A DNA stretch of 37,148 nucleotides from Parcubacteria group bacterium GW2011_GWA2_43_11 (GTDB lineage Bacteria > Patescibacteriota > Minisyncoccia > Phycocordibacterales > UBA12088), in the NCBI GenBank assembly GCA_000998805.1, contig LCFC01000008.1, positions 1-37,148 of the forward strand. Direction: 5' to 3'. This document shows, in pieces, positions 4,323-35,821 of this stretch (its first letter is position 1; every line of letters starts with the position of its first letter). The notes beneath the pieces were generated by a model. It did no database searches, was not told where the DNA came from, and worked only from the letters and a program-made list of their open reading frames with translations. The translations under genes and the position numbers were made by a program.

Positions 4323-6089
4323 CTATAGAATGCTATCTGGATCTACGGTCACGGTGACCAACTCGTAAGGTTTGAGTAGGATGACCGCCTCTTCCATCTT
4401 TTCCTTTATATCTTCCTCTCTCCCAGTAAGAGAGACTTTTATAAGTACGGTGTACGGTGGATAACCAAGTTCTTTCCTTGCCTTAAGCTCACTTCTATAA
4501 AAACGAGAAAAATTACCAGAAATGACTGTTTGAAGAATTTCCGCTTCTGGCTTTCTTGTTTGAACCAGTAATTCCTCTCCAGCTATTTCTCGAAGACGTG
4601 TAAGTGTCGAGGCGATACGTTCATATATGTTCCAACTTGCAAGTGAGAGCAAAGAGTCAAGGGACACGACACCAACCAAAGGCACGTGTTTTTTAAGATA
4701 AGGAAGTGCCATTTCTGTACCAACAAGAATCGCTTGGGGGGTCGCATAAAAATCTTGAACAATTTTTTCCGCATTTGCATGAGTTTTTGACGTATCACTC
4801 GAAAGTACAAATAAGGGTTTTTCAGGCACTATTTCCTTTAACTCTTTTTCAACCAACTCGGTACCTATACCAAACGCCTCAAGTCGCCAACTCGCACAGT
4901 GACTACAGCGTTCCCGTGCATGGCGTAATGCACCGCAAGAGTGGCATAGAAAGTAATTTTCCTCATTACCTTTATGAAGCACCACTGATACACCACACTC
5001 ATTGCACACTACGACCGTACCACAATCTCGACAGAGCGTTACTGGTGAAAGTCCACGTCTCGCAACATACAAAAATGAACGACTACCTTGTGCACTTGTT
5101 TCTTTAATCCGAGTCAGCAAATCATGATGTATCACCCGAAACTGTTTTTTTGGTGAGGTTGTTGACCCTTGTAAGTTTATAATTTCTGCACGTGTTCCAA
5201 AATGCATCCTGTGGTGCCCTGTGACTATTTCTTCGTATTCTCCCAACTCCCTGCGATGAATACTCTCGATGCGCAAAGGTAAATCAGCAAGAAATAGTTG
5301 TCCTCCAAGCTCCGTGGCCAGTTCATGGGCAAGTATGCGAGCATCAAGAAATGGTCTGGTACGAGAACGATACAGAGAGGACCCCTCACGCTCAACAATA
5401 ATTGTCGTAAGATCATGTCGAGGTAAAGAAAGAAAGGAGGGAGGAGCAACAATCAATACAGGATGCTCACTGTTGAGTATCTTTGAAATAGTTTCTTTTT
5501 GTGCTGTTTTTTTTAACGTACTATGCAGTAAAAAAGAATATTGTTCTATTCCTCCCACAAGCTCTTGGTACACTCGTTCCGCATCTGCAACCGTAGGAAC
5601 GGTAATAAAGACCGACCCGCCAGCCGCAAACGCTTCACGAATGGCAGTACGGAAAAACTCAATTCGATTTTGCGCTAATCCTTGATACATTCGAGGAACA
5701 ATAAAACCCCGCAGTCGCGGTTTAGGAATCTCCAACTGCTCTTTGGCTATACCAGGTTGTTCAAGGAGTGCTTTAGGGAGTGTCGCAAAAAGAACTGCGC
5801 CAACGGTCGCTGCATGGTACCGCGCTGCTTTCTGTATTGCACGTATATATTCGGGAGTAACAAGCTGTCTGCTTTTTTGTCTCGGTATTTTACGGAGTAC
5901 ATACCCATTGGTGCGTAAGGCGGCTTTCACGTTATGAACTTTTTCTGACGATAGCACCAATGCAGTTCGTTCTTTCCCACGTATGGGCACCGACACAAAC
6001 GATCCTGCAGGATACTCAAGTGCACTAAAATAGGAAAGCTCGTCGATACTACTCCCTCTGGAAATTGGAATTACAGCCACAATATACAT
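4323..6089 (-). CDS. priA: PriA-like primosomal protein N', ATPase motifs lost
   Basis: PriA reloads the replicative helicase at broken forks. The layout is normal: an N-terminal 3'-DNA-binding domain (MYIVAVIPISRGSSIDEL), a helicase core, a zinc module with eight Cys in CxxC pairs (LCRDCG, VCNECG, LCHSCG, RCSHCA; about 360-405), and a C-terminal domain with ARKELGYPPY. The helicase motifs are not intact: where GVTGSGKT should be it reads GLAQNRIE, the Walker B DEEH position reads EREG, and the QVxGRxGR motif is gone. Actinobacterial PriA is also known to lack helicase motifs. The start at 6089 (588 aa) is chosen over 6152 because TGC-TACTAT (6101-6096) ends six bases before it and the N-terminus then matches the family. 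Confidence 0.85.
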   Translation of the reverse strand: MYIVAVIPISRGSSIDELSYFSALEYPAGSFVSVPIRGKERTALVLSSEKVHNVKAALRTNGYVLRKIPRQKSRQLVTPEYIRAIQKAARYHAATVGAVLFATLPKALLEQPGIAKEQLEIPKPRLRGFIVPRMYQGLAQNRIEFFRTAIREAFAAGGSVFITVPTVADAERVYQELVGGIEQYSFLLHSTLKKTAQKETISKILNSEHPVLIVAPPSFLSLPRHDLTTIIVEREGSSLYRSRTRPFLDARILAHELATELGGQLFLADLPLRIESIHRRELGEYEEIVTGHHRMHFGTRAEIINLQGSTTSPKKQFRVIHHDLLTRIKETSAQGSRSFLYVARRGLSPVTLCRDCGTVVVCNECGVSVVLHKGNEENYFLCHSCGALRHARERCSHCASWRLEAFGIGTELVEKELKEIVPEKPLFVLSSDTSKTHANAEKIVQDFYATPQAILVGTEMALPYLKKHVPLVGVVSLDSLLSLASWNIYERIASTLTRLREIAGEELLVQTRKPEAEILQTVISGNFSRFYRSELKARKELGYPPYTVLIKVSLTGREEDIKEKMEEAVILLKPYELVTVTVDPDSIL

Positions 6090-6189
6090 GCGGATATAGT
6101 AGCATGTTTTTAATAGGACCGACGCAGACGGTACCTGCATCAGCCTATCCAAGTCATAGCAAGTTACCCTAGAAAAGACTTTTCCAGGT

Positions 6190-7503
6190 TTAGAGCACGG
6201 AAATTTCTACTCCAAGTCCACGCAAGTGACCAATGATATCATCATACCCACGATTTATTGGGTAAACGTTACGCAATACTGAACGTCCGTTTGCTGCAAG
6301 CATCGCAACAAGGAGAACTACTGCGGGGCGAAGTGCAGGAGGTGCAACAATTTCTGCAGGACGAAGCACTGTTGGTCCTTCAACATATATGCGGTGAGGA
6401 TCTGCAAGAATTGTTTCTCCACCAAGCTTATCGAGTTCAGTCAGATACAATGCCCGCTTTTCGTACATCCAATCATGAATAAGAGTCGTACCACGCGCTT
6501 GTGTTGCAATAACTGCAAAGAAAGGCAGATTGTCCATATTTAAACCAGGGTAGGGACATGCATGAATTTTATCCTCCGGGGCCTTGAGTACCGACGGGCG
6601 AGTTTTAATATCAACCAACTTCGTGCGCTTGTTTTTTGAAACATACCGTTTCAACACTTCATATTTAAATCCCATATTTTCCAAAGTGAGTAGCTCTTTC
6701 TCTAGGAACTCAATAGGTGCACGCGTAATCGTAATACTTGAACGAGTAACAATCGCAACAGAGAGATACAACATTGCAACGATAGGGTCCTCTGAAAGGG
6801 AATACGTAACAGCCATATTGATACTCTTTTTTCCATGAACCACTAGTGTCGTTGTGCCAATACCGTCAATTTTTACACCACACTGCTCAAGGAAAAAACA
6901 AAGTTCCTGTACCTGATAGTTTGCAGAGGCATACTTAATCGTCGTCGCCCCTGGTATACGTGAAGCAGCCATGATGACATTTTCTGTAGCCGTATCACTT
7001 GATTCATACATGATGATTTCAGCAGGAGAAAGCTTTCCCTTTGAAATAACCCACGATGAATCCTTAGTTTGAATTTTGACACCAAGTTTTTCAAGAGCAA
7101 AGAAGTGTGGACGTACTGTGCGACTTCCCAGTTTACAACCTCCAGAATGTGGAAGCGAAAAACTCTCCAATGAATGCAACAGTGGACCAATAAACATGAG
7201 TATAGAACGCGTTCGTTTTGCAGACTCAATGTTGAGAGCTTTGAGGTCGTATGCAACTGGAGGAATAAGTGTCAGACTATTTTTTTCCCACACGGCCTCC
7301 ATGCCTATGGATTCAAGTACTTCAAGTAAGCGGTACACTTCTTCTATCTTTGGAACATTATGGAGTGTCGTTGGAGCAGAGTTCAGCATCGCCGCTGAAA
7401 GCAAAACGACAGCACCATTTTTTGAACCACCCACCTCCACTTCTCCATGCAGTTTCTTACCTCCATGGATTTCAAAGTGAATCTGTTCTGAATCTGTAAT
7501 CAT
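6190..7503 (-). CDS. murA: UDP-N-acetylglucosamine 1-carboxyvinyltransferase
   Basis: First committed step of peptidoglycan synthesis: adds enolpyruvyl from PEP to UDP-GlcNAc. The 437 residues show the GGSKNGAV substrate motif near 25-32 (Lys and Asn of the active site), the mobile loop with the catalytic, fosfomycin-target Cys (LPHSGGCKLGSRTVRPH, near 117-133), and the late block APPALRPAVVLLVAMLAANG, then NRGYDDIIGHLRGLG. Its presence shows that the cell makes its own wall precursors. A -10 box TACAAT (7515-7510, preceded by TGA) ends six bases before the ATG, so the mRNA is probably leaderless. Confidence 0.95.
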   Translation of the reverse strand: MITDSEQIHFEIHGGKKLHGEVEVGGSKNGAVVLLSAAMLNSAPTTLHNVPKIEEVYRLLEVLESIGMEAVWEKNSLTLIPPVAYDLKALNIESAKRTRSILMFIGPLLHSLESFSLPHSGGCKLGSRTVRPHFFALEKLGVKIQTKDSSWVISKGKLSPAEIIMYESSDTATENVIMAASRIPGATTIKYASANYQVQELCFFLEQCGVKIDGIGTTTLVVHGKKSINMAVTYSLSEDPIVAMLYLSVAIVTRSSITITRAPIEFLEKELLTLENMGFKYEVLKRYVSKNKRTKLVDIKTRPSVLKAPEDKIHACPYPGLNMDNLPFFAVIATQARGTTLIHDWMYEKRALYLTELDKLGGETILADPHRIYVEGPTVLRPAEIVAPPALRPAVVLLVAMLAANGRSVLRNVYPINRGYDDIIGHLRGLGVEISVL

Positions 7504-7926: not shown

Positions 7927-8943
7927 ATGTCTTTCTTTTCACCAAAACTTGGCATCGACCTTGGTACCACAACAACACTAGTGTACGTACCCGAAAAAGG
8001 CGTAGTCCTTAACGAACCTTCTGTGGTGGCAGTGTCACTTCAAGACCGTAAAATACTCGCTGTTGGGGCAGAAGCAAAAGTAATGATCGGAAAAACCCCA
8101 GACACTATTGTAGCGTACCGACCGATGAAAGACGGTGTTATCGCCAATTACCGTGTTACGGAGATTATGCTTTCGTACTACATAAAAAAAGCACTTGGTC
8201 GTTTTAATTTTTTCAAACCCGATGTCATTATTTCTGTACCAGCAGGGGTTACCTCCACAGAACGAAGAGCAGTCGTTGAAGCTGCCGTAAAAGCAGGGGC
8301 AAAAAACGCCTATGTGGTTAAGGAACCAGTCCTTGCTGCAATAGGTGCAGGTATACCTATTCAAGAACCTCGAGGACACATTGTTGCTGATATTGGAGGG
8401 GGCACTATTGATGTCGCGGTTATTTCGCTTGGTGGCATTGTCGCTTCAACCTCTGTTAAGTGTGCAGGCAACAGGCTTGACGCTGCTATTCAAGATTATG
8501 TAAAGAAGCAACACAATATAGCAATAGGTGAGAAGACTGCTGAAGATATTAAAATAATTATCGGTTCAGCACTTCCTGTTGAAGAAGAACTTACTATGCA
8601 AGTAAAAGGTCGCGACATCATTTCAGGACTGCCTCAGGTTACTGAACTTAGAACCAACGAAGTGGTGAAAGCGATACGCAAAGAACTTAATGAAATGGTG
8701 GGGGCTATAAAAGTGGTTCTTCAGGAAACACCACCTGAACTTGCAGCAGACATCCTTGATCGAGGAATTATTATGACTGGTGGAACTAGTCAACTTCGCA
8801 ATCTTCCCGAGCTTATCTTCCGTCGAGCAGGCGTAAAGGCGGTGCTCGCAGACCACGCACCACTTTGCGTAGCTCGTGGTACAGGTATCGCACTTTCTCA
8901 TCTCGATACCTATAAACGCAGTATGATGTCAAAGAAGCAATAG
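7927..8943 (+). CDS. mreB: Rod shape-determining actin homologue MreB
   Basis: MreB forms membrane-bound filaments that guide lateral wall synthesis. The 338 residues show the actin-fold ATP motifs: phosphate 1 LGIDLGTTTTLVY (about 8-20), connect 1 and PVLAAIGAGIPI near 135-146, phosphate 2 IVADIGGGTIDVAVI near 153-167, and the adenosine motif GIIMTGGTSQLRNL near 281-294. The N-terminal MSFF may form the short amphipathic membrane contact. With murA upstream it points to a walled cell with controlled shape. A weak -10 (TGC-TATATG) lies about ten bases before the ATG. No mreC or mreD is adjacent. Confidence 0.95.
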   Translation: MSFFSPKLGIDLGTTTTLVYVPEKGVVLNEPSVVAVSLQDRKILAVGAEAKVMIGKTPDTIVAYRPMKDGVIANYRVTEIMLSYYIKKALGRFNFFKPDVIISVPAGVTSTERRAVVEAAVKAGAKNAYVVKEPVLAAIGAGIPIQEPRGHIVADIGGGTIDVAVISLGGIVASTSVKCAGNRLDAAIQDYVKKQHNIAIGEKTAEDIKIIIGSALPVEEELTMQVKGRDIISGLPQVTELRTNEVVKAIRKELNEMVGAIKVVLQETPPELAADILDRGIIMTGGTSQLRNLPELIFRRAGVKAVLADHAPLCVARGTGIALSHLDTYKRSMMSKKQ

Positions 8944-28206: not shown

Positions 28207-30015
28207 ATGAGTACGAAACATGCCAATGAGGGACCTCTCGCAGTATACGCAGGAATACTTGTCGACGGAAATGACCTCCACATCGCAATCAAAAACGGTG
28301 AGGTTGTTTCTTACAAAACAACCTCACCAGAGGAGACCAATACAGAGAAAAATGTCTTGAGGTATCTTGAGGCATACGAAATACGCACAAACAACAAAAT
28401 TGTTGCTGCTGGAATCGTCAAAAACAATGATGAAATTAATTTTAAAGACCTTTCTTCAAATTTATGGCTCCAGCTCGATATTGTTCCATATACATTCAGT
28501 ATCACGGAAGGGAGTTACCAAGAAAAAACCGAACGAGTAGCGAACTTGATTGCAGACCGTTTTGATCCTCAACAGAATATCGATATCTTGTATGGAGAAA
28601 ACCGTGTCATACACCCACATCGTCTTACCGGGAGACGACCATTGCGTGACATTGTTCCCAAGGAGCAGTATGAACACTTGAAGTCTCTTGCAAAGGAATT
28701 TAATACACTTGGAGGACGTATTGCTTTCATAAGTGCGACACCACAAGGAGGAGGGGTGGCACTTATGAGACATGCCTTGATACGGCTACTGCATCAGTTT
28801 AATGTAGACGCGAATTGGTACGTGCTTATTCCTGATACACGAGTATTTAGTATAACAAAAAAGAAGTTCCATAATGTCCTCCAAGGTGTAACGAAACCAC
28901 CACCACCACTTACCGATCACGACAAAGAGCTCTACGAAAAATGGACTGCTAAAAATGCCAGAAAATTTACGGACGCCTTCACAAAGGCTTCGGTTGTTGT
29001 TATTGATGACCCGCAACCATCTGGACTCATACCGTACATCAAAGAAGTAAATCCCAAGGCAAAAATCATATACCGTTCTCATATCCAAGTTGATGCCTCT
29101 CTTATCGCCGACCCGTCAACTGTGCAGGCGGAAACATGGAATTATCTATGGAACAATATCTCACTTGCTGATATTTTTGTAAGTCACCCTGTACGTGCAT
29201 TTGTCCCTAAAAACGTGCCGAAAGAAAAAGTGGTGTATGCACCTGCAACCACTGACCCACTTGACGGCCTCAATAAGCCATTACAGAAGAGGCACAAGGA
29301 CTACTACATGACTCTTTTTAACCAGTTATTGTTACAAGTAGGACAGGAACCAATTGATTCAAAACGACCATACATTATCCAGATAGCTCGATTCGACCCA
29401 GCCAAAGGTATTCCGGATGTAATTGAAGCATACCGTATATTGTGTGAGAAACTTGACCAAAAAAAGAAACCGCACCCTCAACTAGTACTGCTCGGACATG
29501 GTTCTATTGATGATCCTGAAGGCAAACCGCTATACCAAGAAACAATTCAACTCATACACACTGAGCCGTACAAACACCTTACGAAGGATATAAAAGTTGC
29601 TCGGATACATGCAAGCGATCAGATACTCAATACACTTCTCCGTAATGCGCGTGTAGCTTTACAACTTTCACACAAAGAAGGCTTTGAGATAAAGGTGACA
29701 GAAGCTATTCATAAAGGCGTCCCTATCATCGCATATAAGTCTGGAGGAATACCATTACAAATCGAAGATGGCGTTACTGGGTACCTGGTCAAGACTAAAG
29801 ACGTGTATGCTGTAGCAGATCGTCTGTACGACCTATGCACCGACAACAAACTTCATGCCACCATGAGTGCGCAAGCAAAGAAGGGCTACTGCCGTGATTT
29901 CTTCACCATAGGTAATTCGATAACCTGGCTCTACTTTGCACTACAACTCATAAAAGGGAAGAAGATTACGCAAGCACAAATACGCTCTTGCACCAACCTT
30001 CCAAAAATGCTGTAG
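28207..30015 (+). CDS. GT4-family glycosyltransferase, trehalose synthase/phosphorylase-like
   Basis: A 602-residue protein. Residues 1-140 form an extra N-terminal domain unlike ordinary GT4 enzymes. From about 165 a GT-B fold follows: FISATPQGGGVALMRHALIR near 178-197 (glycine loop), YRSHIQVDASLIADPSTVQA near 291-310, IIQIARFDPAKGIPDVIEAY near 394-413, and the donor-site HKEGFEIKVTEAIHKGVPII, with the EX7E motif, near 495-514. The acceptor-domain pattern and long N-terminus resemble TreT and the fungal trehalose phosphorylase/ccg-9 group, so it may make or split trehalose from NDP-glucose; this is inference. TACACT (28195-28200, preceded by TGA) ends six bases before the ATG. Confidence 0.8.
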   Translation: MSTKHANEGPLAVYAGILVDGNDLHIAIKNGEVVSYKTTSPEETNTEKNVLRYLEAYEIRTNNKIVAAGIVKNNDEINFKDLSSNLWLQLDIVPYTFSITEGSYQEKTERVANLIADRFDPQQNIDILYGENRVIHPHRLTGRRPLRDIVPKEQYEHLKSLAKEFNTLGGRIAFISATPQGGGVALMRHALIRLLHQFNVDANWYVLIPDTRVFSITKKKFHNVLQGVTKPPPPLTDHDKELYEKWTAKNARKFTDAFTKASVVVIDDPQPSGLIPYIKEVNPKAKIIYRSHIQVDASLIADPSTVQAETWNYLWNNISLADIFVSHPVRAFVPKNVPKEKVVYAPATTDPLDGLNKPLQKRHKDYYMTLFNQLLLQVGQEPIDSKRPYIIQIARFDPAKGIPDVIEAYRILCEKLDQKKKPHPQLVLLGHGSIDDPEGKPLYQETIQLIHTEPYKHLTKDIKVARIHASDQILNTLLRNARVALQLSHKEGFEIKVTEAIHKGVPIIAYKSGGIPLQIEDGVTGYLVKTKDVYAVADRLYDLCTDNKLHATMSAQAKKGYCRDFFTIGNSITWLYFALQLIKGKKITQAQIRSCTNLPKML

Positions 30016-30048
30016 GAAGGTTTTACTCCCGTTTTTCAGGACACACAC

Positions 30049-30077
30049 TTGACTGGGTTATTTATCTATGCTATAGT
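30049..30077 (+). promoter_or_regulatory. Strong promoter for a small membrane peptide
   Basis: TTGACT (30049-30054), 17 bases, TATAGT (30072-30077) with an upstream TGC. Its near-consensus form contrasts with the -10-only promoters of the housekeeping genes nearby. Confidence 0.75.
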
Positions 30078-30124
30078 TTTAAACGGAATATTATTGGTGA
30101 TAAATAAAAAAAAGGAGAAATCGC

Positions 30125-30259
30125 GTGAAAGTACTTAATTTTGTTTTACGTACAATAAGAAAGAAGTACCTTTGGATATTTGTTTTCTTGGTACTGAGTT
30201 GTGAATTCGTCGCTGCTCTCACCCTGTACGGAGACAGGGCAAAGTACGGCTTTTTTTAA
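30125..30259 (+). CDS. Small single-span membrane peptide (44 aa)
   Basis: The GTG start follows AGGAG (30113-30117) by seven bases. The sequence begins MKVLNFVLRTIRKKYLWIFV, then a hydrophobic run to about residue 37, and ends YGDRAKYGFF. A basic amphipathic head and a single helix suggest an inner-membrane peptide. A near-consensus promoter upstream and a terminator downstream frame it as its own transcription unit, so it is probably highly expressed. No family recognised; toxin or regulatory roles are possible but unproven. Confidence 0.65.
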   Translation: MKVLNFVLRTIRKKYLWIFVFLVLSCEFVAALTLYGDRAKYGFF

Positions 30260-30293
30260 AGTGCACTTTCATACAGTACAAGGAGATAATAAA

Positions 30294-30331
30294 AAACCCT
30301 CGGGATTCGATTGATCCGAGGGTTTAATATA
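30294..30331 (+). terminator. Terminator of the small peptide unit
   Basis: AAACCCTCGG (30294-30303) and CCGAGGGTTT (30316-30325) form a perfect 10-bp stem, with A6 before it and TTTAATAT at its end. Confidence 0.85.
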
Positions 30332-30371
30332 TTTTGTATGGACATTACTTACTTGCTACACTAAATATACA

Positions 30372-30677
30372 ATGAAATACTTTCAAAAACTAAAGAAATA
30401 TTACCAACATAATCCTGAAGGTTATTGGTTTAAACGAAAACTTTACGGCTGGGGTTGGACACCGGTCACATGGCAAGGATGGATGGTAACCGTGGCATAT
30501 GTTGGGCTCGTGCTGTTTTTCACACTCACTGTCGATACAAGTTCAAGCATAAAAGAGATTGTACTTACATTCTTATTGCCACTTACTTTTCTAACAATTA
30601 TTTTTTTTCGTATCGCATACCGTAAGGGAGAGAAACCTCGATGGCAGTGGGGTATACCTGATACCTTGGGTAATTAA
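30372..30677 (+). CDS. Small membrane protein with two spans (101 aa)
   Basis: A basic, aromatic N-terminus (KYYQHNPEGYWFKRKLYGWG) is followed by two hydrophobic helices (about 35-53 and 64-81) and a tail with Trp residues (GEKPRWQWGIPDT). The layout is common among unnamed Patescibacteria membrane proteins; function unknown. TACACT (30357-30362, preceded by TGC) lies nine bases before the ATG, without a Shine-Dalgarno sequence. Confidence 0.7.
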   Translation: MKYFQKLKKYYQHNPEGYWFKRKLYGWGWTPVTWQGWMVTVAYVGLVLFFTLTVDTSSSIKEIVLTFLLPLTFLTIIFFRIAYRKGEKPRWQWGIPDTLGN

Positions 30678-30761
30678 ATTACGCGACAGAGTATGAGGGT
30701 GGAGAGGTAGGGAATCGGGAGTGAAAAAAGGTACTAAGTACCTATTTGTGATAAATACATT

Positions 30762-31178
30762 ATGAAAAAAAATATTGTTGGAATCGGTGTACTTTTAGAA
30801 ACACCTACTGAAACTTTTTTATTTCAAGAACGTGACAAGAACTTAAAAAGAAACCCAGGACGCATAGCACCATTTGGTGGAGGAATGGACTTAAACGAGG
30901 GCCCTCTACAATGCGCTATTCGTGAACTTTCTGAAGAACTTGAACTTGAAATACAAAAAGAAGATTTACTTGAAATAGGGGTGTTTGAAAGTCATTATAC
31001 TAAACAGACGTTTATTCAAATATATTTACTTAAAAATATTGTGTCTGACAACCTCACACTTCACGAAGGAGAAAGTATTGTTGAACTTAGTCTAGAAGAC
31101 GCTCTTCAAAACGAGCTTGTAACTGATTTTACCAAAGAGGTACTTAAGTCGCTAGCATCTAGAGAAAAAAGGAACTAA
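30762..31178 (+). CDS. Nudix hydrolase
   Basis: Hydrolyses a nucleoside-diphosphate-linked substrate. The Nudix box is complete: GGGMDLNEGPLQCAIRELSE then ELEL (about 46-69), with all metal-binding Glu and the catalytic REL-EE core. The front strand GIGVLLETPTETFLFQERDK is typical. The pocket residues of MTH1 found in the gene at 25795 are partly kept (PGRIAPFGGG instead of AGRWNGFGG), so the substrate probably differs. 138 residues, monocistronic, no clear ribosome binding site. Confidence 0.85.
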   Translation: MKKNIVGIGVLLETPTETFLFQERDKNLKRNPGRIAPFGGGMDLNEGPLQCAIRELSEELELEIQKEDLLEIGVFESHYTKQTFIQIYLLKNIVSDNLTLHEGESIVELSLEDALQNELVTDFTKEVLKSLASREKRN

Positions 31179-31225
31179 GTACTTTTTTTATTAATCCTTT
31201 TTGGCCGACCGTCCCGCAAGGATTC

Positions 31226-31351
31226 ATGGGGTGGGGAAGAGGGGTAAATGTTGAAATAAAAGATACCTATTTCCGCGGTCGCGAGAATGGGTATCTATTT
31301 GAAAATATGTACTTACTATTAGGTTTAACTGGTAAAAATTCATATTCTTAG
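31226..31351 (+). CDS. Possible small ORF (41 aa)
   Basis: From ATG 31226 to TAG 31351, with AAGGA five to nine bases upstream. The peptide (MGWGRGVNVEIKDTYFRGRE, then 21 more residues) has no motif. It overlaps an imperfect hairpin (AGATACC 31261-31267 with GGTATCT 31290-31296), so the stretch may be a structured 3' region of the Nudix mRNA instead. Confidence 0.25.
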   Translation: MGWGRGVNVEIKDTYFRGRENGYLFENMYLLLGLTGKNSYS

Positions 31352-31364
31352 CCATTTTTTAGTG

Positions 31365-31393
31365 TTGACAAGAGTCTGTAATGGTGCTAACAT
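31365..31393 (+). promoter_or_regulatory. Consensus-like promoter of the candidate RNA
   Basis: Perfect TTGACA (31365-31370), 17 bases, TAACAT (31388-31393) with an extended TGC. A start near 31400 is predicted. Confidence 0.75.
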
Positions 31394-31399
31394 ATAGGC

Positions 31400-31562
31400 A
31401 GATGAGCTACACGCCAACGGTGCATCTAAAACAGTTGGTTTTCTCTCAATAACGACCCACGGTTAGAGGGAAGAATAACAGTGGTAAGTACAGTTAGCTT
31501 GTACCAGCTAACTGTACAATCAAACATATCACCTGAGTGCTTCGGCCTCAGGTGGTTTTTTT
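31400..31562 (+). ncRNA. Candidate structured non-coding RNA (about 160 nt)
   Basis: Between a strong promoter and a clear terminator there is no ORF longer than 16 codons starting with ATG. The RNA folds into four consecutive hairpins: AGATG/CATCT (31400-31427), TTCTCTC/GAGGGAA (31441-31472), a perfect 12-bp stem GTACAGTTAGCT/AGCTAACTGTAC (31488-31517), and the terminator CACCTGAG/CTCAGGTG (31530-31554) with T7. I cannot match it to tmRNA, RNase P, SRP RNA or a known riboswitch. It precedes the accessory block 31652-34158 and could be a free small RNA. Confidence 0.65.
31530..31562 (+). terminator. Intrinsic terminator of the candidate RNA
   Basis: CACCTGAG (31530-31537) pairs with CTCAGGTG (31547-31554), loop TGCTTCGGC, then GTTTTTTT. 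Confidence 0.9.
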
Positions 31563-31651
31563 GTGCTAACTAAAATTATTGGTGACGGCGGGGTGTAATT
31601 ATGTAACAATATGAGCAGGGGGGTGGAATTTTATTTATTAATTATTTACGT

Positions 31652-31936
31652 ATGCCTGAAACTATTCCTTTTAACATCGCCAATTTGCTACTTTTTACCA
31701 TGCCTGGATTTTTTCTTTTATGGTCCGTGGGGTACAGGGCAAAAAGTGATTTTGTGTTTTTTATGTTTAGTATGTTCTGGGGAATTGTACTCATGATGGT
31801 TTTCATTTACAAAATCTCCTTTTTGAAATGGATGACTCCGCTCCTCAACAACCCATACGCAGGAGCAGTTGTATTTTCAATTTTTGCATATGCGCTAGGC
31901 TTAATGATTAAGTGGATTAAACCGAAGTTTAAGTAG
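31652..31936 (+). CDS. Small membrane protein (94 aa), possibly DUF6338-like
   Basis: Three hydrophobic segments: NIANLLLFTMPGFFLLWSVG (about 8-27), FVFFMFSMFWGIVLMMVFIY (34-53) and AGAVVFSIFAYALGLMIKWI (70-89). The PGF turn in the first helix resembles the start of DUF6338 membrane proteins, but the rest of that family is missing. It lies 98 bases upstream of the ATPase gene and may be its co-transcribed partner. No clear ribosome binding site. Confidence 0.55.
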   Translation: MPETIPFNIANLLLFTMPGFFLLWSVGYRAKSDFVFFMFSMFWGIVLMMVFIYKISFLKWMTPLLNNPYAGAVVFSIFAYALGLMIKWIKPKFK

Positions 31937-32033
31937 AAGTCACGCAATATTGTGCGACAATTAAAATCTCGCAATTATCAAAAGAGGAATTGGAGTAAGT
32001 GACATCGAAGATATTATAAGTGACAATGGAAAT

Positions 32034-33494
32034 ATGGATATACAAGCAGAGGGTTACCAAATACAAGGATTAGGTAAAATCAATATTATTCTTGGTAAAA
32101 ATGGTGCCGGTAAGAGTACTCTTTTACGGAACATTCAAGGAGCGTACCAACATGCTGACCCAAAACAATTACTTACTACATCATACATTACGCCTGAAAG
32201 AGGGGGGATTCTATCATACGAGGCAGGGACTGAACACAACATCAGAAATAACCCAAGATGGATGCCTCAAGAAAGGAAGAAAAACTTAACATCCAATTTT
32301 AGACAACAAACTGTTGCACAGTTTAGAAATTTGCAAACTATAATTTCTGAAGAAATTGAATCCTTGGTAGAAAATGACATAAAGCCTTCAAAGGATATTT
32401 TGTTTAAGCGCTATGTTGAAAAAATCAACACTCTTCTTGACCAAATTGAAATTCGACCAGATAAAAAAATATTTTCCATGTATAAAAAAGGTACTGAGAA
32501 TATTATAGATGCTTCAAATATAAGCAGTGGCGAATCTGAACTTATTGCGCTTTCAATTGAATCTCTAGTTTTTTCAAAAGAAGATGATTTCGACCGTCCA
32601 AAAGTTTTACTCCTTGACGAACCAGATGTTCATTTACATCCTGATTTACAAGTTAGGTTTATGCGATTTTTGCATGAATTAGCAACTGAAGAAAATTTTA
32701 CTGTTATTCTAGCAACACACAGTACAGCAATACTCGGCGCACTTGAAAAGTACAGTGATGTAAATATAGCTTTTTTGGTTAATGGTCAAAATATCATTAA
32801 TTTTGAAAGCATAAACAAAATTTATAGAAAGATATTACCAATGTTTGGAGCTCATCCCCTTTCAAATATTTTTAACGAGGCACCAGTTCTTTTGGTAGAA
32901 GGAGAAGATGATGAACGTATTTGGCAAACTGCCGTTCGTTCTTCAAACGGTCATATAATCATTTATCCTTGTTCAGTTGACGGAACTCCAGAAATGCCAA
33001 AATTTGAGAAAGATATAATAAAAATTATGAAAGCTGTGTATGAAAACGCCAAAGGTTACTCATTGAGAGACAAGGATGAGTCTGGGTATGATGAATTGAA
33101 CGACGAAGGTCCTCTTATTAGATTCCGACTCAAATGCAGAGAAATTGAAAACCTTTTACTTACAGATGAAGTAATAAAAGAAACAAGAATAAAAACTTGG
33201 GAATCATTGCGCGACAAACTTGTGATCTGGATAAAGAATAACAGTGAACATTGCTATATTCAAACAATGAAAGATTTTCAAAACTCTAATTTTGATAGAC
33301 GCAACTTTGATATAAAAAATATTCGAAACATCTTAGTAAATGAAATGGGTGAGACAAGAACATGGGAAGTGTTAGTTGGAAAAACAATAGGTAACAGTAT
33401 GTGGAACGATTCTACTAATTTCAATACAGAGAATAGTATATTTACATTTCTAGGTGAAAAATTATCAAAATCATTATTACCTAAAAGCATTTAA
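32034..33494 (+). CDS. AAA/ABC-type ATPase with C-terminal TOPRIM/DUF4435-like domain (OLD-like)
   Basis: A 486-residue protein in two parts. The ATPase (1-270) has Walker A GKNGAGKST near 20-28, an ABC-like signature SSGESELIAL near 168-177, Walker B VLLLDEPDVHLHP near 190-202 and an H-loop ATHST near 228. The C-terminal part starts LLVEGEDDERIW near 284-295 (first TOPRIM Glu), followed by RDKDESGYDE near 345 and REIENLLL near 369, the pattern of DUF4435/OLD-type TOPRIM domains that cut nucleic acid. Such proteins (OLD, GajA, PARIS AriA relatives) act in phage defence. Codons appear more AT-rich than in neighbours. The PD-(D/E)XK gene follows after 67 bases. Confidence 0.8.
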   Translation: MDIQAEGYQIQGLGKINIILGKNGAGKSTLLRNIQGAYQHADPKQLLTTSYITPERGGILSYEAGTEHNIRNNPRWMPQERKKNLTSNFRQQTVAQFRNLQTIISEEIESLVENDIKPSKDILFKRYVEKINTLLDQIEIRPDKKIFSMYKKGTENIIDASNISSGESELIALSIESLVFSKEDDFDRPKVLLLDEPDVHLHPDLQVRFMRFLHELATEENFTVILATHSTAILGALEKYSDVNIAFLVNGQNIINFESINKIYRKILPMFGAHPLSNIFNEAPVLLVEGEDDERIWQTAVRSSNGHIIIYPCSVDGTPEMPKFEKDIIKIMKAVYENAKGYSLRDKDESGYDELNDEGPLIRFRLKCREIENLLLTDEVIKETRIKTWESLRDKLVIWIKNNSEHCYIQTMKDFQNSNFDRRNFDIKNIRNILVNEMGETRTWEVLVGKTIGNSMWNDSTNFNTENSIFTFLGEKLSKSLLPKSI

Positions 33495-33561
33495 TTAAAA
33501 GTAAAAGTTAAGAGTTCCTAAAAATATAATTTTTTTAATTATTAACTTCAATAATCAATCC

Positions 33562-34158
33562 ATGTCACCAGCAATACACACCGATGATACAAATAAAGAT
33601 TTAATTGAAACTGAAATAGGATTGGTACCAAAAACTTGGGAAAACAGGGAATTATTTGTAAAAATCTTATTAGATTTTTTAAATAAAGAAAAGTTTCTTT
33701 TAGAGAATAACTTAAACGAGCGTACTATCACACACAAATTAGCAGAACTTCTGGATATAGAATTTTCAAAATTAGAATATGATGTTGATTGTGAATACAA
33801 CAGAATGGAAAATAGAAACATGAGTTATGAAGAATCTGCAAAGAGATTAAATTTATTAGATGAAGTTAGTACTGAAGAGGATGAACTAGGACAAGGAATT
33901 ACAGTTTTCCCTGATATTATCATTCACAAACGTAAAGATAATTCAAAAAACTTACTTGTAATTGAAGTGAAAAAAACTGAATATGCTAATAAAACAAGAG
34001 GGCAATTAGAAGAAACTTACAGAGATTTTGATAAAAGAAAACTTTGCGCTTACACAAAAGAACTTAAGTATGTTTATGGAGTATATTTGGAGTTCAATAA
34101 AAAAGAGTTATGCGCAGATAAGACACTATTCTTCTCAAAAGGTGAGCAGGTGAAATAG
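33562..34158 (+). CDS. PD-(D/E)XK superfamily nuclease-like protein
   Basis: 198 residues. The nuclease core is readable as FPDIIIHKRKDNSKNLLVIE followed by VKK: Asp118 from the PD strand, and Glu135 and Lys137 from the E-x-K strand. These are the metal-binding residues of restriction-type nucleases. A helical N-terminal region (ELFVKILLDFLNKEKFLLEN) comes before it and a conserved-looking helix (RGQLEETYRDFDKRKLCAYT) after. It probably works with the ATPase gene just upstream. No methyltransferase is nearby, so it is not a plain restriction-modification pair. Base composition is AT-rich like the ATPase. Confidence 0.75.
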   Translation: MSPAIHTDDTNKDLIETEIGLVPKTWENRELFVKILLDFLNKEKFLLENNLNERTITHKLAELLDIEFSKLEYDVDCEYNRMENRNMSYEESAKRLNLLDEVSTEEDELGQGITVFPDIIIHKRKDNSKNLLVIEVKKTEYANKTRGQLEETYRDFDKRKLCAYTKELKYVYGVYLEFNKKELCADKTLFFSKGEQVK

Positions 34159-34265
34159 CTTATTCCAACTTTTAACCTTAATAACAGCCTCTCAGTTCTT
34201 TATACCCACGTACCAGATTATGTTGAGCCAGCTCAGGGCTAAATACTAATTACTCTCGGCTCCAC

Positions 34266-35243
34266 TTAATCCTTCAATGGATGATATTTATGGTGTGACT
34301 CCTCAGCATATTTGTCAGAGGCGTGAACATAGCGCGTCGTGGTCTCAAGTGACTCGTGACCTAGTAGTATCTGTATAGCGGCAGGGTTGGCTCCTTGCTC
34401 AGCTAGGTAGGTAGCATACCCGTGCCGGAGTGAGTGGGCACTCGTGGGTATGTTGATACCAAGAAGTTCTCTGTACCACTTAATCTTACCCTGGAGGTAG
34501 TTTGGAGAAATGTGTTTGACCTTATTGCCAGCATTTGCTCCTCGCATTGAAACAAAGAGGTAGGGGAAATCATCGGTACGCTCGGCTAAATAACTCTTGA
34601 TATGTTTCTGTGCTCGGTCTGTCAAATAAATGAAGCGCTGTTTTTTTCCTTTACCTTGAATAAAAACGCGACCAGAGACATCTATCTGCACACGACGTAA
34701 ATTGATAAGCTCTGAGATACGCATACCACTAGCAAACAAAGTTTCGAGCATGGCTCGGTTACGAAGTGCGACTATTTTGTTTTTCTCATACTTCGATGGA
34801 GACTCTATAAGCTCCTGCAACTGCTCGAGCTCAGAAACTTGCGGATGCTTTTTCTCTCGTCGCAATAACTTTATTGAAACAGGATCGATAGGTACTTGAT
34901 AATCCATATCAATGAGGTACGTAAGGTATCGACGTAACGATGTCAGATGGCGATTGATAGTACCACTTGAAAGTTTCTTAACCGTAACTTGATCTTTAGC
35001 AGTCAATCTGTCGCGTGAGTTAAGATACGCCTTATATTGCTCAATAGACTTTTTTGAAAGGTTCTCAAACAGCGGGGAAGAGAGCTCCCGAATTAAAAAA
35101 TGTTCAAAGGTTTCTATGTCACGTTCGTAGTTGTACAACGTTTCTTCAGAATAATTATTTGCTTGGATATGTAAAAGAAAATCATCCACAGCTGGAAGAA
35201 GGGCTTCGGAGTTTTTGATTGGTTCTTTTTTAATCATATACAT
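34266..35243 (-). CDS. Tyrosine recombinase of the XerC/XerD family
   Basis: Cuts and joins DNA at specific sites through a Tyr intermediate. The N-terminal SAM-like core-binding domain spans about 15-125. The catalytic set is complete: Arg in ASGMRISELINLRR near 172-185, Lys in GKGKKQRFIYL near 197, HSLRHGYATYLAEQGAN near 269-285 (His and Arg), LGHES near 291 and the nucleophile in TTTRYVHAS. At 325 residues it is slightly longer than XerD (298). It may be the chromosomal dimer-resolution enzyme or the integrase of the accessory block beside it. The upstream region holds -10 TACAAT and a small AAGGG/CCCTT hairpin directly before the ATG. Confidence 0.9.
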   Translation of the reverse strand: MYMIKKEPIKNSEALLPAVDDFLLHIQANNYSEETLYNYERDIETFEHFLIRELSSPLFENLSKKSIEQYKAYLNSRDRLTAKDQVTVKKLSSGTINRHLTSLRRYLTYLIDMDYQVPIDPVSIKLLRREKKHPQVSELEQLQELIESPSKYEKNKIVALRNRAMLETLFASGMRISELINLRRVQIDVSGRVFIQGKGKKQRFIYLTDRAQKHIKSYLAERTDDFPYLFVSMRGANAGNKVKHISPNYLQGKIKWYRELLGINIPTSAHSLRHGYATYLAEQGANPAAIQILLGHESLETTTRYVHASDKYAEESHHKYHPLKD

Positions 35244-35299
35244 ACAAGGGAAGTACCCTTAAATTGTACCGCAGTACTTGAATATTGCTCATATTTCTA

Positions 35300-35388
35300 T
35301 GTGGATAACTGAGTATAATTACTCTAATACTCAGTTACTACGTATATAGAAGCTCGTTTAGAAGCGAATCCTATATAAGTTATCCACA
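35300..35388. promoter_or_regulatory. Two perfect DnaA boxes flanking an inverted repeat
   Basis: TTATCCACA occurs on the minus strand at 35308-35300 and on the plus strand at 35380-35388, both exact matches to the strongest E. coli DnaA box. Between them AACTGAGTAT (35307-35316) and ATACTCAGTT (35327-35336) form a perfect inverted repeat. AT-rich sequence follows (35400-35460). It may be a replication origin, part of one, or a DnaA-controlled promoter of the recombinase. No dnaA or dnaN gene is in the window. Confidence 0.5.
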
Positions 35389-35481
35389 GGTCAAGTAGTC
35401 TAAATAAACCAAAAAATTTCAAGATTTCTATTCTTGGATTTCTCATTAGATTATTTTTCAGTAATCAGAACATAAAGTTAC

Positions 35482-35730
35482 CTACGTACTCATCCCTAAG
35501 TATCTATCCAGCCACTCGCCAGTCAGAGTATGCTGGTGCCTACGTGAGTCCAAAGATAAGAGTAAGCACTCCACCCACTGCTCTACCCTATCCGCCTCCC
35601 CTACTTTTAATGTCGCACAATATTTTAAAGTACTGAGTAATGAGAAGTGAGCCGAGAGCACTGAGTTTAGAATACGTTTACCCCGCCTTGGCGGGGTAAA
35701 CTTTTTACCTACCTGCGCAGGCAGGCTCAC
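35482..35730 (-). CDS. Doubtful ORF (82 aa)
   Basis: An open frame with no recognisable domain, overlapping a strong palindrome and a terminator-like hairpin (35676-35706). Its first 20 residues are read from that hairpin. The middle (KVGEADRVEQWVECLLLSLD) could be a helix but no family is recognised. Probably not a gene, or the remains of one. Confidence 0.2.
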   Translation of the reverse strand: MSLPAQVGKKFTPPRRGKRILNSVLSAHFSLLSTLKYCATLKVGEADRVEQWVECLLLSLDSRRHQHTLTGEWLDRYLGMST

Positions 35731-35758
35731 GGCTCATTACTAATTACTCATTACCTAT
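35620..35758 (+). repeat. Composite inverted repeat around a terminator-like hairpin
   Basis: Outer arms: GTAATGAGAAGTGAGCCGAG on the left (from about 35636) and GCTCACGGCTCATTAC then TAATTACTCATTAC on the right (to about 35755). Inside, GTTTACCCCGCC (35676-35687) and GGCGGGGTAAAC (35690-35701) form a 12-bp stem followed by TTTTT, and CCTGCGCAGG is a further palindrome. A related stretch lies near 34246-34262. Confidence 0.5.
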
Positions 35759-35821
35759 ATAAGCACAGTTACGTAATCATCAAACGAGGAAAGTTGTATG
35801 AGAGAAAATATGAAAACATTT

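Follow-up and report, generated by a model that had tools for sequence, protein, structure and literature searches.

The DNA analysed here, referred to as the window, is a stretch of 37,148 nucleotides of contig LCFC01000008.1 from Parcubacteria group bacterium GW2011_GWA2_43_11, in which two open reading frames (genes 1 and 2) are located between a small membrane protein gene and a gene for a tyrosine recombinase (Table 1). According to the ORF list of the window, gene 1 encodes 486 amino acids, and gene 2, which begins 67 bases past it on the same strand, encodes 198 amino acids. The positions and the spacing given in a preliminary description of this DNA, which proposed the two genes as a new anti-phage module, were exact. 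Since both ORFs have relatives elsewhere, they are real genes.

Table 1. Features of the locus, in positions of the window
Feature	Position	Strand	Remarks
Gene for a small membrane protein, resident on the left	31652..31936	+	87% identical in G381
Variable cargo interval	31937..34264	.	Equivalent in same-genus G381 (L150 6619-8425) occupied by unrelated genes
Gene 1, predicted ABC-type ATPase (~residues 1-270) and DUF4435-like TOPRIM (~280-486)	32034..33494	+	Fused AriAB-like single-gene family
Gene 2, small protein resembling PD-(D/E)XK nucleases and PADLOC PD-Lambda-3_A	33562..34158	+	Probably independent cargo; no conserved partner of gene 1
Xer-type tyrosine recombinase, resident on the right	34266..35243	-	71% identical in G381, 69% in G385

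Gene 1 had been described as an ATPase of OLD/PARIS type joined to a DUF4435-like TOPRIM domain, a reading borne out by profiles, invariant residues and fold match. All the motifs quoted for it (GKNGAGKST, LLLDEPDVHLHP, VEGEDDE, RDKDESGYD and REIENLLL) were found in the protein, and the Pfam and PADLOC profile matches indicate that the motifs of genes 1 and 2 did not arise by chance. Against Pfam, gene 1 matched AAA_21 (E=1.9e-19, 71.3 bits), AAA_15 (53.2 bits) and, at E=7e-4 and 19.8 bits, which is under the family cut-off of 27, DUF4435. Its top PADLOC match was AriAB, the fused form of PARIS (E=2.9e-23, 80.4 bits), to which gene 1 is closest by profile. An alignment of the gene 1 family comprised 46 members with 31-54% identity to gene 1; the AriAB profile matched all of them (best 8.6e-30), DUF4435 matched 13 (E<=0.01), and an OLD-type TOPRIM family was absent among the 25 Pfam families listed. 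The Walker A motif, the SSGE signature, DEPDxHxHxD and THS were invariant in the 46 sequences, as were E289, D346, D348, E372 and N373 on the TOPRIM side.

The AlphaFold2 model of gene 1 (pLDDT 91.1, pTM 0.86) was compared with known structures by using Foldseek, whose leading matches included GajA, retron-Eco8, PtuA, OLD and AriA with E-values from 6e-9 to about 1e-6. Whole-chain TM scores against these structures were low (about 0.3), as a different domain arrangement would lead one to expect; the model thus supports membership of the GajA/Eco8/OLD/PtuA/AriA fold family and no particular assembly.

The relatives considered in the preliminary description (Gabija, PARIS and Septu) omit the closest kind, the single-gene ATPase-TOPRIM proteins already described as fused AriAB (PMC9122126), class 1 OLD (PMC10568477) and IbfA/HEC-04 (PMC12111858). 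Judged by its sequence, gene 1 is a member of the broad known OLD/PARIS kind and resembles a fused PARIS or a class 1 OLD enzyme. As in fused AriAB (PADLOC PDLC02981; Rousset et al., 2022, PMC9122126), a single chain carries an AAA_21/AAA_15 ATPase and, after it, a DUF4435-like TOPRIM, but the AriAB model has 694 positions compared with 486 amino acids, only positions 230-529 were aligned, and the DUF4435 match of gene 1 is below the Pfam cut-off. Class 1 OLD enzymes (P2 Old; T. scotoductus OLD, 6p74), which are stand-alone ATPase-TOPRIM nucleases (PMC10568477), are also found in variable neighbourhoods, and gene 1 likewise joins an ABC ATPase to a C-terminal TOPRIM in one stand-alone gene with no conserved partner. 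It matched 6p74 along the chain at E 3.5e-7 and 14% identity (Foldseek) and differs from class 1 OLD in that its TOPRIM-side Pfam match is DUF4435, as in AriB. The best Foldseek match along the chain was GajA of Gabija, a class 2 OLD protein (8u7i_A, E 6e-9); unlike in Gabija, however, no UvrD/Rep-like helicase GajB lies beside gene 1 or recurs in its family. Septu, in which PtuA is adjacent to the HNH nuclease PtuB, differs in that gene 1 has its own TOPRIM and gene 2 matches PD-Lambda-3_A only. Regarding retron type I-B (class 3 OLD), no reverse-transcriptase-like ORF was recognised by reading the flanks of gene 1, and no retron RNA family matched in 30000-35800. Finally, IbfA of plasmid R64 (HEC-04) is a defence protein that joins ATPase and TOPRIM in one gene and, with 518 amino acids, is about as long as gene 1 (PMC12111858), but only 81 columns in the ATPase domain showed hhalign similarity to gene 1, and a close kinship was discarded as unsupported past that domain.

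Two scans, the first covering 84,980 species genomes and the second viral contigs, yielded about 50 long relatives of gene 1 from Patescibacteria, Alpha-, Beta- and Gammaproteobacteria, Bacteroidota, Cyanobacteria, Actinomycetota and Verrucomicrobia. Within the phylum, two of 192 genomes (that of the window and G143) contained an intact long match, and a third, G013, a broken remnant. Of 5,426 complete E. coli genomes, 26 carried the member of that species, WP_000868467.1, which sits after yfgI in both regions inspected, with guaA or a prophage beyond. Phage records contained partial matches to gene 1 only, and no relatives of gene 2. The patchy distribution of the family would fit acquisition of gene 1 by horizontal transfer. 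In E. coli (L029 10942-11712; also L026 9942-10712), an integrase-core pseudogene comes after the homologue, together with a protein that has a response-regulator domain and predicted membrane segments and is possibly a partner in this lineage.

Restriction-modification genes immediately precede three of the four top-scoring relatives of gene 1: a type II REase and Vsr at L031, a type II methylase at L032, and hsdM with hsdS at L034. Many other relatives lie among genes without an evident defence role, and no restriction genes adjoin gene 1 in the window. PADLOC models matched at E<=1e-15 in the gene-1-family loci numbered 180 from 94 genes less than 1.5 kb away and 25 from 89 genes more than 3 kb away; since these models overlap heavily, one methylase or specificity gene being able to match dozens of them, both values give a direction and represent neither a gene count nor a measured enrichment. 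At L034 (3145-7428), from a gammaproteobacterial MAG, hsdM, hsdS and a gene 1 relative are consecutive on one strand, an order that would suit a restriction-guarding role.

Gene 2 carries a PD...ExK core (P117-D118, E135 and K137) whose residues were invariant in eight relatives. Its sole PADLOC match was PD-Lambda-3_A (E=2.5e-19, residues 30-179 of 198), which profile match and family alignments place in the same protein family. PD-Lambda-3 is reported to act by abortive infection (PMC13190303). Its PADLOC name implies a second component, for which no match was obtained among the four proteins scanned, although a divergent one could be missed. Matches to Pfam were all sub-threshold, e.g., TnsA-like N at 0.037. 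The AlphaFold model, built from a three-sequence alignment, reached a pLDDT of 62 and had no significant match in the PDB; several of the weak matches were PD-(D/E)XK nucleases, which points weakly to a PD-(D/E)XK core fold. The PD-(D/E)XK-like character proposed for gene 2 is borne out by motif and PADLOC profile, with weak backing at the level of fold. In viral-contig scans, gene 2 found one close and one distant relative. Relatives are positioned directly upstream of hsdS within type I restriction operons at L115 and L116 (genes named by reading the sequence) and adjoin unrelated genes at L114, L118, L119 and on plasmids L027 and L028. Gene 2 is probably a small endonuclease of the restriction type that would act independently of gene 1. 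At L117, a protein of the gene 2 family (4591-5277) is convergent with a 666-amino-acid OLD-type protein (5270-7270) from outside the family of gene 1. In G098 (L003 711-1547, 1486-2037), a gene 2 relative overlaps a same-strand gene of 278 amino acids without a known Pfam family, an overlap that suggests co-expression of both.

The neighbours of the pair are conserved in the same-genus genome G381 (L150), where, in addition to the two flanking genes of Table 1, a glycosyltransferase (95% identical), a Nudix protein (83%) and an M23 peptidase (93%) were found. Nucleotide similarity between the window and L150 ends at the stop codon of the membrane gene (31936) and restarts at the 3' end of the recombinase (34265), and between those points L150 carries a 253-amino-acid membrane protein and a Fic-like protein with a GC content of 32%. 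The same flanks around a different cargo indicate that the flanking genes belong to the locus and that the pair is its variable content. The recombinase and the membrane gene to which the preliminary description had drawn attention are both present, as residents common to a genome with other cargo; on the same grounds the small membrane gene was ruled out as a third component. Signs of transfer, also proposed earlier, were upheld, and the AT-rich composition was confirmed by comparison with the housekeeping genes of the window, with GC contents of 33% for gene 1 and 29% for gene 2 compared to 43-46%, and GC3 values of 25% and 23%, respectively. No attachment site was identified at the slot. 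Short inverted repeats around the cargo (31903-31916 / 34261-34274, 93%) were set aside, since the same region contains five further 14-nt pairs that are equally good. In L150, a 23-nt direct repeat (7438-7460 / 8403-8425, 96%) bounds the Fic-like cargo gene; its 17-nt core had four inexact matches in the genome of the window, compared with one for the control, and no match in the window itself.

A profile of the gene 2 family was compared with six-frame translations of 55 gene-1-family loci (638 kb), that is, the window and 54 others from several bacterial phyla and viral contigs, with up to 5-9 kb on each side; three of them were near-identical E. coli copies and some were cut by contig ends. 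It matched in the window only, and the family of gene 1 was absent from the nine gene-2-family loci examined. Genes 1 and 2 were thus found together nowhere else in the loci examined, a search that the preliminary description had suggested as a check, and its claim of a two-gene module was not supported. The surroundings of gene 1 and its relatives lack any recurrent family; the most frequent cluster, a tyrosine recombinase, occurred at differing distances in 5 of the 54 loci. A conserved gene 1-gene 2 pair was rejected for lack of co-occurrence in either direction at the examined loci. Together with the different cargo in the same-genus slot, this makes it probable that both genes are low-GC cargo of a slot whose contents are exchanged, and that they adjoin each other there without forming a new immune system of two parts.

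We consider it likely that the interval contains two separate cargo genes, with gene 1 as a compact single-gene effector of the OLD/PARIS superfamily and gene 2 as an independent PD-(D/E)XK endonuclease. That both would constitute one new anti-phage module, the PD-(D/E)XK protein being a second effector controlled by the ATPase-TOPRIM protein, is improbable: although both genes have low GC and lie 67 bases apart on one strand inside the variable interval, and each family is separately linked with restriction-modification operons, neither family carries the partner at its other examined loci, the gap shows no overlap or tight coupling, and recurrent neighbours are mostly missing around gene 1 relatives. 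Even less probable is that the family of gene 1 represents a distinct widespread single-gene OLD/PARIS-type class guarding restriction systems, with a PD-(D/E)XK nuclease recruited as second effector in this lineage.

Gene 1 might instead be an enzyme of the OLD type with a housekeeping function in DNA repair or replication, acquired by transfer and not devoted to defence. This seems unlikely, if somewhat less so than a module, since Cran1, an archaeal enzyme of the OLD family, has a cell-cycle function and was reported not to be antiviral (PMC12796447), and defence neighbours are missing for many gene 1 relatives; the very patchy spread within the phylum and in E. coli, the position in a low-GC exchangeable slot and the best profile match to a defence family argue against it. 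Decayed or inactive transferred DNA would agree with the low GC and variable content of the interval and with the remnant in G013, but both ORFs are intact and retain every conserved catalytic residue, which makes this explanation very unlikely.

If gene 1 is a defence effector, as favoured here, it would probably act by abortive infection, by analogy with described systems. In PARIS, the sensing of phage proteins by AriA, e.g., of the anti-restriction protein Ocr, leads to release of the TOPRIM tRNase AriB (PMC12409363). The components needed for such a course of events are united in the single chain of gene 1. The ABC domain of gene 1 may similarly dimerise or oligomerise with ATP and restrain the TOPRIM nuclease until a phage signal frees it; this could be an anti-restriction protein, as for PARIS, a possibility raised by the three of four top-scoring relatives that follow restriction-modification genes. 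The putative TOPRIM site (E289, D346 and D348) would then cut nucleic acid, either tRNA, like AriB, or DNA, like OLD and GajA, and this cleavage would stop the infected cell.

With the proposed two-gene system set aside, the remaining object is a compact (~480 amino acids) ATPase-TOPRIM family with 46 aligned members. A 2023 review asks if any chromosomal single-gene OLD-type protein alone gives broad phage defence (PMC10568477), and the E. coli member WP_000868467.1 makes this question testable in a laboratory strain. The locus is also an example of exchangeable cargo in a patescibacterial genome of small size.

Non-coding signals around the pair were inspected as well. Searches for regulatory and retron RNAs gave nothing at gathering score, with two sub-threshold matches that are likely due to chance, and promoter and terminator scans were level with shuffled sequence. 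Positions 31365-31565 of the window, for which no Rfam family fitted, contain a promoter-like TTGACA-17-TAACAT and, about 95 bases on, a 15-bp inverted repeat (31488-31517) followed by a hairpin-like stretch with a T run; this element is possibly a small RNA.
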